NCBI GenBank assembly: GCA_938016515.1
Contig: CALILP010000141.1
Location: 1-48,123 of the forward strand
Direction: 5' to 3'
DNA from: an uncultured Paracoccaceae bacterium
GTDB taxonomy: Bacteria > Pseudomonadota > Alphaproteobacteria > Rhodobacterales > Rhodobacteraceae
Length of the DNA stretch: 48,123 nucleotides
Shown here in pieces: positions 44,260-48,123 of this stretch (within the stretch, counting starts at the first letter, position 1; each line of letters begins with the position of its first letter). The position numbers were made by a program, and so were the translations under genes. The notes beneath the pieces were generated by a model. That model saw only the letters and a list, made by a program, of their open reading frames with translations. It was not told where the DNA came from and did no database searches.

Positions 44260-44901
44260 ATGACACGTATCCTTCCCGGCGTTCTCGCCATGGCCATCAT
44301 CGTGGTCGCCTCTAACATCCTTGTGCAATTCCTGATCCTTGATGGTCTGCTGACCTGGGGGGCCTTCACCTATCCGCTGGCGTTTCTGGTAACGGATGTG
44401 ATGAACCGGCTCTATGGCGCAGCACAGGCGCGTAAGGTCGTGCTGGCGGGCTTGGTCACCGGGATCATCTGTTCTTTGATCGGTACACAGATTGTCTTTG
44501 ACAGCGAATTTGGCCCTTATAACGCAGTTGCCCTGCGTGTTGCCCTTGGATCGGCCACTGCGTTCGCAATAGCGCAACTTCTGGACATCACAGTGTTCAA
44601 CAAACTGCGGGACGGATCGTGGTGGAAGGCGCCTCTTGTGTCGACGCTGGTTAGCTCCACAGTCGATACAGCAATCTTCTTCACCATCGCTTTCTCTTCT
44701 GTTTTCAACGGGTTCTCCGGGGCTGCGACCAACGAAATCATCTGGGCCCAAGACCCGGCGCCGTTCTTGCTCACAGGTCCTGAGATGCCACTATGGGTGA
44801 CGTTGGCGGTGGCGGATTGGGGGGTGAAACTGGCGATTGCTTTGATCGCGCTGGTGCCGTTCCGCTTGATTGTTGGGCGATTTGCGGCGCGGGCCGCTTA
44901 A
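44260..44901 (+). CDS. Queuosine precursor transporter (YhhQ/VUT family)
   Basis: WGAFTYPLAFLVTDVMNRLYGAAQARKVVLAGLVTGI, characteristic VUT_1 motif. Confidence 0.88.
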   Translation: MTRILPGVLAMAIIVVASNILVQFLILDGLLTWGAFTYPLAFLVTDVMNRLYGAAQARKVVLAGLVTGIICSLIGTQIVFDSEFGPYNAVALRVALGSATAFAIAQLLDITVFNKLRDGSWWKAPLVSTLVSSTVDTAIFFTIAFSSVFNGFSGAATNEIIWAQDPAPFLLTGPEMPLWVTLAVADWGVKLAIALIALVPFRLIVGRFAARAA

Positions 44902-45393: not shown

Positions 45394-45807
45394 ATGAAGA
45401 TCAACGACCACATCACCCTTGAGGACTGGGAACTGACGGAACAGTTCGCGCGGTCGTCCGGCCCGGGTGGGCAGAACGTCAACAAAGTGTCGACGGCGGT
45501 GGAACTGCGCTTTGAGGCGGAGCGGTCGCCGAATTTGTCCGAGGCCGTGAAGCGGCGGTTGCGCCGGGTGGCGGGGCAGAAGTGGACGAAAGACGGGGCG
45601 GTGGTGCTGTTCGTGCAAGAGACGCGGTCACAGGCGCGGAACAGGGAGATCGCGCGGGAGCGTTTGCGCGCGCTGATCCTGCGGGCGCTCGAGGTCCCCA
45701 AACGGCGGATCGGGACGAAACCGACCTACGGGTCGGTGAAGCGGCGGCTGAAGGCGAAGAAGGTCAGGGGTGAGGTGAAGGCGTTGCGGGGGAAGGTGGA
45801 GGAGTAG
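45394..45807 (+). CDS. arfB: Alternative ribosome-rescue factor / peptidyl-tRNA hydrolase ArfB
   Basis: RF-type GGQ motif SSGPGGQNVNKVSTAVELRF with basic C-terminal tail KPTYGSVKRRLKAKKVRGEVKALRGK. Confidence 0.92.
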   Translation: MKINDHITLEDWELTEQFARSSGPGGQNVNKVSTAVELRFEAERSPNLSEAVKRRLRRVAGQKWTKDGAVVLFVQETRSQARNREIARERLRALILRALEVPKRRIGTKPTYGSVKRRLKAKKVRGEVKALRGKVEE

Positions 45808-45865
45808 GGTGTGTGCTTGCACGCACCTTTTAGGGCGGAATGGTGCGTGACGAGCACGCATCCTA
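45805..45865. repeat. REP/BIME-like inverted-repeat element
   Basis: TAGGGTGTGTGC...GCACGCATCCTA outer inverted repeat (2 mismatches) enclosing two hairpins (GGTGTGTGCTTGCACGCACC and GTGCGTGACGAGCACGCAT). Confidence 0.6.
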
Positions 45866-45872
45866 CAGCTCG

Positions 45873-47300
45873 CTATGAGATTATCTCACGAAACTTGCTA
45901 TCTAGGATTTTCTCGATTGCACCTTCATCCATCATCGCCTTCGCTCTCAACAATTGAACTAGATCATTATCAGTAAGGACCATGATGTAGCCGCGCCGAG
46001 CAACTGCCAGATCCCTACATTTTTTTATTGCCTTCCGTCCCTTACCTAGATCTCTACAAGTCATAACTCCAAGATACCCGCGATTATCGTCAAACCGTCC
46101 AAGAAGTTGATCAATTTCTGGATTATTGATTTCCTTAGAATAATTCTTGCATTCAACAATTACCATTGTAGCCGCGGTATTTTTCGCATCCCTTCGGTGC
46201 GAGAAGAATCCATTCTCTGAAGCGTTCGTATAAACAATGTCGATGCGTTTTCGGCCCTCATTTATTTCCCACTCTTTGTGAGGATTCACTAAGTGTGGAT
46301 AGAAGCAAGTCGTAAGGATGCCCATGGCAATGCTATGATACCTGTTGGCGTTCTTACGTCCTGTTGGGGTTGCGAGCAATTTGCTCTCAAGCTGAGCACA
46401 TACCTCACCAACTGTCGGATCATCGTCATCAAAATTGACAAGCATGTCGGTCTCTTTGGCAATCTTCTTGTACATATCCAGCAAGTCTGGATATTTCGCG
46501 ACCATATCAGCTATGAAGCTCTTCGATTTCTTATTTTTCTTCCTGACCTCCCCTTTAGGAACCCATTTTTTACCGCTCTTAAGCGTTTCTACAAGACTTG
46601 TATTTGCATCGAGGTTCTCAGCGACCAAGAAGTCGGTAATCTGTTTTTTATAGAAGACGTCTGCATCTAATGATAGACGCCGCCGGACGGAAAACTTAGG
46701 AACAAGCATTACCGGAGCGTCGCTAACGCGGGGCAACTTCACCATTTCGCTTATCCAACTCTTCCTATCACTTCTCCAAATAGGTGGTCCGTTGTAGTCA
46801 TGTAACTTAATTCCATATAGCCCACATTGTTGCGCCGTGTACTCTATCAACCTACGTCGAATTACGTTTGTCGTTAAGTCTGATATCTTGTCGCGATCAA
46901 CACCGTCAACATAGAGTGCCATTTCTGAAAGATCACTCAGAATGCCCGTCTGATACGCTTTGCTGTTTCTTATCGCATGAATAAGTTTTGAGGATTGCGC
47001 ACTACCAACACCTTTACCTTTTGGAGGACCCGATGACACTCCAAGAAACGTTTCCATCGGCTCATGCAAGTGCGACATAAGATTTCTCGCCCTTCGCATG
47101 TCACCGTTGCGAATTGCATCAAGCACCTCTTTGAAGAACACTCTTATATCCTGTGAGGCCGCTCCAGACCAAACATCATTTCTGATTTCGATCGCATAAG
47201 GGTCGACATATACAGGTAGGTCTTGGTCAGTATCTACGTCAACAAAGTCTAATTGAGCCTGCGATGCATTAAGCTTAAAGAATTCGGAGAATTTCGGCAT
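45873..47300 (-). CDS. PD-(D/E)xK-like nuclease-domain protein of unknown function (475 aa)
   Basis: C-terminal EWEINEGRKRIDIVYTN...ATMVIVECKNYSKEINNPEIDQLLGRF (D...ECK restriction-endonuclease-like core); SD GGAGG before ATG at 47300; AT-richer than neighbours. Confidence 0.75.
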   Translation of the reverse strand: MPKFSEFFKLNASQAQLDFVDVDTDQDLPVYVDPYAIEIRNDVWSGAASQDIRVFFKEVLDAIRNGDMRRARNLMSHLHEPMETFLGVSSGPPKGKGVGSAQSSKLIHAIRNSKAYQTGILSDLSEMALYVDGVDRDKISDLTTNVIRRRLIEYTAQQCGLYGIKLHDYNGPPIWRSDRKSWISEMVKLPRVSDAPVMLVPKFSVRRRLSLDADVFYKKQITDFLVAENLDANTSLVETLKSGKKWVPKGEVRKKNKKSKSFIADMVAKYPDLLDMYKKIAKETDMLVNFDDDDPTVGEVCAQLESKLLATPTGRKNANRYHSIAMGILTTCFYPHLVNPHKEWEINEGRKRIDIVYTNASENGFFSHRRDAKNTAATMVIVECKNYSKEINNPEIDQLLGRFDDNRGYLGVMTCRDLGKGRKAIKKCRDLAVARRGYIMVLTDNDLVQLLRAKAMMDEGAIEKILDSKFREIIS

Positions 47301-47311
47301 GAATTGCCTCC

Positions 47312-47376: not shown

Positions 47377-48123
47377 CTAAACCACAACCTCCACCTTCTC
47401 CTGCTCTCCGACCCCAAACACCCGCTTGTACCGTGCGATCTCCGCTTCCGGCCCCATCGCTTTGTTCGGGTTGTCTGACAGTTTCACCGTTGCTTTGCCG
47501 TCCGCCGCGACGGCTTTGCAGACCAGGCTGAACGGTGCCAGCGCGTCTCCGTCCGCCAGCCCTTTGAAGTCGTTGGTCAGCATCGTTCCCCAGCCAAACG
47601 ACACCCGCACCCGGCCTGCGAATTGCGCTTGCAGTGCTGCGATCTTGTCCACGTCCAGACCGTCCGAGAAGATGACCAGTTTCTGGCGCGGGTCTTCCCC
47701 CCGCTCCTGCCACCAGCGGATCGCTTTTTCTGCCCCGGTCGCCGGGTCGCCGCTGTCGATGCGCATGCCGGTCCAGCCCGCCAGCCAGTCGGGTGCTCCG
47801 GCCAGAAACTGATCCGTGCCGTAGGTGTCGGGCAGGATGATGCGCAGGTTGCCGTCGTGTTCCGCGTGCCAGTCCGCCAGCACGTCGTAGGGCGATTGCC
47901 GCAGGGCCGCGTCGTCCTGCGCCAAGGCCGCGTAGACCATGGGGAGTTCGTGGGCGTTTGTCCCGATCGCCTCGATCTCGCGCATCATGGCGATGCGGCA
48001 GTTGGAGGTGCCGGTGAAACTGTCGCCCAGCCCCTCTTTCAGCGCCTGCACGCACCAGTCTTGCCAGAGGTAGGAGTGCCGCCTGCGCGTGCCGAAGTCC
48101 GCGAGGCGCAGGTCGGGGATGTC
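47377..48123 (-). CDS. pncB: Nicotinate phosphoribosyltransferase (C-terminal part; 5' end beyond window)
   Basis: Minus frame open to window edge: [46 protein letters not shown]...[12 protein letters not shown]...[10 protein letters not shown]. Confidence 0.92.

Follow-up and report, generated by a model that had tools for sequence, protein, structure and literature searches.

A 475-amino-acid gene lying alone between arfB and pncB in an uncultured Paracoccaceae bacterium is best explained, at a probability of roughly 0.7, as an immune module of one gene that moves horizontally and occupies a single-slot defence hotspot in the genus Yoonia, where it would act against phages. We consider it a probable single-gene immune system because the same slot in related marine bacteria holds differing genes, often anti-phage ones, and this position in the hotspot is the strongest evidence for the defence reading. 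A role in defence of some kind is the safer claim, and a likely one. The window, the whole 48,123-nucleotide stretch of DNA analysed here, forms one of the 227 contigs of a fragmented, 81% complete assembly, and the features on which the argument draws are listed below.

45394–45807, plus strand: arfB, which with the convergent pncB forms the fixed edges of the hotspot (PDB match to YaeJ/ArfB, 8e-24)
45804–45866, no strand assigned: long palindromic hairpin between arfB and the 475-aa gene (dG −45.9 kcal/mol, z −8.7)
45873–47300, minus strand: 475-aa gene, with an N-terminal domain of unmatched fold and a C-terminal PD-(D/E)xK nuclease domain (ORF, profile matches, alignment, AlphaFold2)
45876–46412, minus strand: C-terminal PD-(D/E)xK domain, about aa 297–475 (Pfam comparison, AlphaFold2, fold search)
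46107–46109, minus strand: codon of Q398, an invariant glutamine after the ExK motif (alignment of 76 homologs)
46146–46154, minus strand: codons of E383-C384-K385, the ExK motif (E383 and K385 invariant in 76 homologs)
46239–46241, minus strand: codon of D354, a predicted metal ligand (invariant in 76 homologs)
46452–47300, minus strand: N-terminal domain, aa 1–283 (alignment, separate model, no PDB fold match)
47307–47311, minus strand: ribosome-binding site GGAGG, 6 nt before the ATG (sequence)
47377–48123, minus strand: pncB, cut off by the end of the contig; it is the hotspot's second fixed edge, with the cargo directly after its stop codon

An intact, horizontally acquired gene with an invariant nuclease core

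The open reading frame is intact on the minus strand, running from an ATG at 47300 to a stop codon that ends at 45873. PDB matches identify both flanking genes (nicotinate phosphoribosyltransferase in the case of pncB, 1e-94), and no other ORF lies between them, as a preliminary description made from the letters of the DNA had read the locus. That description also took the gene to be richer in A and T than its housekeeping neighbours and to have been acquired horizontally, and base composition bears out both points. GC at third codon positions (GC3) is 0.450, compared with 0.83 in arfB and 0.84 in pncB, and overall GC is 0.440 against a window mean of 0.582 (sd 0.025); every 1,428-bp stretch that begins before base 44400 of the window has a GC of at least 0.539. 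Upstream of the gene, a search for sigma-70-like promoters gave none, and no adjacent DNA methyltransferase, the mark of a type II restriction–modification system, was found in the arfB–pncB gap or among conserved neighbours. The hairpin on the arfB side is a dispersed REP-like repeat, a near-perfect 24-bp palindrome with partial copies on contigs C136, C125, C104 and C109.

Two motifs mark the C-terminal part of the protein, RKRIDIVYTN, which contains D354, and VIVECKNY, which contains E383-C384-K385. Across an aligned set of 76 full-length homologs from many phyla, D354, E383, K385 and Q398 never vary, so the D…ECK pattern is not a chance motif. AlphaFold2 with this alignment gave a model (pLDDT 90.6, pTM 0.90) in which the nuclease core spans about residues 315–455 and contains a helix (315–333), strands (337–341, 355–359 and 379–384), a second helix (393–400) and a further strand (410–414), reproducing the α-β-β-β-α-β core of the PD-(D/E)xK superfamily. 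The restriction-endonuclease-like core first proposed from the motifs, for which structure prediction had been named as the check, is confirmed at the level of the model: the C-terminal part is a predicted nuclease of PD-(D/E)xK fold with conserved active-site residues, and the protein as a whole is probably a DNA endonuclease.

Foldseek placed FokI, Nt.BspD6I, EcoT38I and MspJI as the nearest PDB folds, none of them significant over the whole chain, and annotated restriction endonucleases or Mrr as the nearest viral folds (probability 1.0). The best PDB hits, FokI, Nt.BspD6I and MspJI (E 0.004–0.1), follow the same order of a recognition part and then a C-terminal PD-(D/E)xK domain, but their TM-scores are only 0.2–0.28 and they give no significant match over the N-terminal part. 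For the C-terminal domain Pfam's nearest family is Mrr_cat, at 14.9 bits against a cut-off of 21, and it matches 20 of the 76 family members at E values up to 0.1 (best 0.0011); by Pfam's cut-off the protein is not an Mrr. Its likeness to Mrr-type or type IV enzymes consists in this nearest family, in the viral fold matches and in having no need of a methylase, whereas the score below the cut-off and an N-terminal domain that matches no solved structure set it apart. PDB sequence searches with the 475-aa protein returned chance matches only, and a match of Na/K-ATPase beta to the ECK motif was rejected as such.

The N-terminal region, initially described as unassignable to any family, proved to be covered by profiles of two recorded families, although no solved fold corresponds to it: modelled alone, the N-terminal 283 residues reach a pLDDT of 94.3 and have no PDB fold match (best E 3.0). 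Neither Pfam nor NCBIfam returned a significant family for the protein. It is a member of phrog_27295, which matches it over its full length (8.8e-102) and carries no functional annotation in PHROGs, and the PADLOC candidate PDC-M36A (PDLC04597) matches aa 2–452 at 3.9e-43, where true members score about 1e-241. PDC-M36A has the same two-domain layout and shares the acidic residues of the N-terminal domain and the ExK core, at about 23% identity. The PDC-M36 loci of Leptolyngbya and Methylobacterium contain two small M36B genes, whereas the window has none. An M36B hidden-Markov model detected these partners in five PDC-M36-type loci, which served as a positive control, and none in the window's branch, of which 93 loci were covered; in the window and its genome the PADLOC M36B models likewise found nothing. 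Because the partners are missing from this locus and from every one of the 93, the branch is a stand-alone one, which upholds the earlier view of a gene without an adjacent partner. Lacking M36B, the gene falls outside the definition of PDC-M36 and represents a stand-alone variant of a catalogued candidate family previously known only by profile; a literature search found no paper naming PDC-M36.

A tree and a residue table divide proteins with this N-terminal domain into four groups. The window's branch joins the domain to the nuclease without a partner, PDC-M36 proper follows the same fusion with the two small M36B genes, and a third group includes five viral-contig proteins with a related nuclease part. 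The fourth consists of proteins of about 300 aa that have the N-terminal domain only and are encoded on plasmids of Acinetobacter, Bacillus, Rhodococcus, Prescottella, Micrococcus and Lacticaseibacillus (small plasmids at loci L015, L016, L017 and L020–L026). Residues Q14, F19, D27, E80, G87, G95, D137, S140, D141 and P201 are invariant in the full-length homologs, and D27, D33, E80, D137, S140 and D141, of which D33 is the least strict in the family, are also kept in the N-domain-only proteins. A Paenibacillus plasmid protein (L014, 5251–6708) shows the converse exchange, carrying the same C-terminal nuclease behind an unrelated N-terminus. Together these proteins indicate that the two parts are exchangeable modules and that the N-terminal domain can be useful alone. 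In four actinobacterial plasmids examined (L017, L023, L024 and L026), a conserved ORF of 132–138 aa precedes the N-domain-only gene, and the 6.8-kb Lacticaseibacillus plasmid with such a gene otherwise has only replication genes annotated, plus a small ORF.

Gene exchange between arfB and pncB in Yoonia

Both flanks lie on one contig, making the gap readable, in 38 Yoonia genomes, or 39 with the window. A GGDEF (diguanylate cyclase) gene occupies it in 12 genomes, all of one lineage, once as a remnant, and one gap is nearly empty; in the other 26 genomes, the window included, which belong to a sister lineage, about 22 different kinds of cargo occur, in most cases a single gene at 40–50% GC. 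Where the preliminary description had looked to an empty arfB–pncB site in relatives, the comparison thus yields one nearly empty gap and otherwise a GGDEF gene or differing inserts, that is, a genus-wide insertion site. Cargo in 11 of the 26 genomes matches defence profiles, counting the window's PDC-M36A-like gene: DRT2 (2e-131), dCTP deaminase (1.5e-145), HEC-05/GmrSD (2e-177), AbiU/AIPR (3e-33), PDC-S21/SIR2-like (5e-10 for the copy that was scanned, with a near-identical copy in a second genome), PDC-S33/RelA-SpoT (2e-10), dGTPase-like (2e-9), DndB-like (8e-7) and a reverse transcriptase fragment (4e-15). The sole PADLOC control in this set, the GGDEF gene, gave no hit. About half of the inserts have no defence assignment. 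The gap is a one-gene core defence hotspot whose cargo, to judge by its family assignments, would protect against phages, and it is from here that the defence reading of the preliminary description gains its main support, as a continuing inference.

The boundaries of the exchange are sharp. Similarity stops at the pncB stop codon and variation starts at the arfB stop on the other side; a pncB tree shows that close relatives and sister species carry different cargo, and in several species in which arfB is located elsewhere AT-rich inserts still abut pncB. The same assembly contains a second pncB, 94% identical, followed directly after its stop by different sequence (G000:C200:34–777, L117), suggesting that cargo varies even among very close strains. 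This second copy may also point to a mixture of strains in the assembly.

Site-specific insertion with att-like repeats was considered and rejected: the pncB 3′ end is not repeated on the arfB side, and the window's gap contains no integrase. Nor is the arfB-side hairpin a general insertion site, as most congeners do not have it. Most simply, recombination within the core genes on either side would exchange the cargo, a mechanism described for hotspots without an integrase (PMC5635113). Like known core defence hotspots (cDHS1 and cDHS2 of Pseudomonas aeruginosa, PMC10250203; integrase-free hotspots, PMC5635113), the Yoonia slot is bounded by constant core genes, turns over its defence genes rapidly, is low in GC and often contains no integrase. 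It differs in scale, usually measuring 1–2 kb with one or two genes, whereas cDHS1 and cDHS2 have medians of 26 and 6 kb (PMC10250203).

Relatives, mode of action and competing explanations

Relatives of the gene are sporadic and widely scattered. Three of 57 Yoonia genomes carry it, at different loci, and one of these copies (G039/L004) is truncated in the nuclease domain; at most 13 of 385 members of the class have it. A species-wide scan found 108 relatives, of which 80 loci were kept, in Proteobacteria, Bacteroidota, Firmicutes, Actinobacteria, Acidobacteria, Chloroflexi, Planctomycetes and candidate-phyla-radiation bacteria; these stand in unrelated contexts, and the homologs are not syntenic core genes, contrary to the outcome that the preliminary description had named as one to count against it. 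The nearest relatives, in Thalassospira and Bradyrhizobium, are 57% identical. Seven full-length homologs lie on viral contigs, one beside an integrase (L148) and one beside capsid and terminase genes (L149), and tblastn of phage records gave no match. The genome and viral scans used an alignment of close relatives; single-protein patterns were too specific and found nothing, and alignment A1 was too diverse for a pattern search.

No conserved partner gene recurs in 92 homolog neighbourhoods, and a hidden partner was rejected on this ground and by the model search that excluded M36B. PADLOC hits among immediate neighbours amounted to 87 families in 90 proteins, compared with 60 in 90 for genes more than 5 kb away, so that defence enrichment is not clearly seen and neighbourhood alone is weak evidence. 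Association with defence genes, which the preliminary description had set as a check, holds in the arfB–pncB slot and is not clearly found around homologs elsewhere. In four loci (L183, L192, L214 and L222) the homolog follows type I restriction genes encoded on the same strand. Four others (L186, L206, L228 and L238) are near a gene for a MazG-like pyrophosphohydrolase, three of them also near a protein of 575–730 aa that in two cases starts GIY-YIG-like.

In the immune module that we favour, the N-terminal domain (aa 1–283) would recognise either some feature of the DNA of an invading phage or plasmid or a state of infection, and would direct or license the PD-(D/E)xK domain (D354, E383, K385) to cut DNA. 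Self-DNA would most simply be spared by lacking the trigger, not by being masked, much as modification-dependent (type IV-like) enzymes spare it. For the 475-aa protein we infer that it cleaves DNA, that it answers to such a trigger and that the outcome is anti-phage. As no methylase accompanies the gene, either a trigger missing from self-DNA or a conditional, abortive activation is to be preferred. The PD-(D/E)xK superfamily includes suicide effectors besides restriction enzymes. An abortive effector, in which sensing of a phage product or state by the N-terminal domain would lead the nuclease to degrade all DNA so that the infected cell dies or arrests, would suit a gene without a methylase for self-protection, a highly conserved N-terminal domain that is modular enough for the Paenibacillus protein to have replaced it, and hotspot co-residents (SIR2-like, RelA/SpoT-like, AIPR/AbiU) from families known for abortive or toxic action. 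The best fold matches of the nuclease, however, are restriction enzymes, on which ground we lean slightly towards the type IV-like mode; direct restriction of this kind rather than an infection-triggered suicide response is a tentative preference, and the abortive effector a possible but rather doubtful one. The usefulness of the N-terminal domain without a nuclease, on small plasmids, is not explained by a pure sensor role and counts against the favoured module. The plasmid-borne relatives, which keep the same acidic residues, suggest that the domain may have an activity of its own. Because these invariant residues persist where the nuclease is absent, the domain might be an undescribed enzyme fold with an acidic site at D27, D33, E80, D137 and D141, active alone in the one-domain proteins and, when fused to PD-(D/E)xK, forming a single-protein immune system with two catalytic centres in many phyla; we regard this as unlikely.

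Other explanations dispense with host immunity. A selfish or competition gene of mobile elements, serving plasmid maintenance or the exclusion of rival plasmids or phages to the benefit of the element and not the host, would account for homologs on viral contigs and for N-domain-only relatives on small plasmids, one of which has only four annotated genes and one of which is preceded by an ORF annotated as a plasmid addiction protein. The window copy nevertheless lies on the chromosome and has neither a plasmid or integrase gene nor an antitoxin gene next to it, and in prophage genes rival exclusion and defence are hard to tell apart; we hold this explanation to be improbable. Still less can be said for a non-immune repair or housekeeping nuclease gained by transfer: PD-(D/E)xK folds are common in repair, and in Leptolyngbya and Methylobacterium the remote relatives have a UmuC homolog upstream (annotated as UmuC or as DUF4113), yet the sporadic occurrence of the gene and its place in a rapidly exchanging slot with defence-type genes already disfavour a repair role, which is very improbable. 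The truncated Yoonia copy might suggest a decaying insertion without present function, but the window copy is full length, has every family-invariant residue intact and retains a ribosome-binding site, leaving decay the least probable of all.

If the immune module that we favour is correct, this would be a widespread stand-alone defence gene whose N-terminal half matches no solved structure. Independently of that module, with DRT2, dCTP deaminase and GmrSD genes among the residents of the slot, its one-gene inserts that have no assignment become candidates for new immune genes, each small enough to clone. Those seen in the gaps (L079–L098, L119–L146) encode proteins of 556 aa (G051), 422/510 aa (G040/G022), 445 and 148 aa (G016), 407 aa (G031) and 352 aa (G054), a 495-aa ATPase (G008) and a GHKL ATPase of 522 aa (G046/G010).
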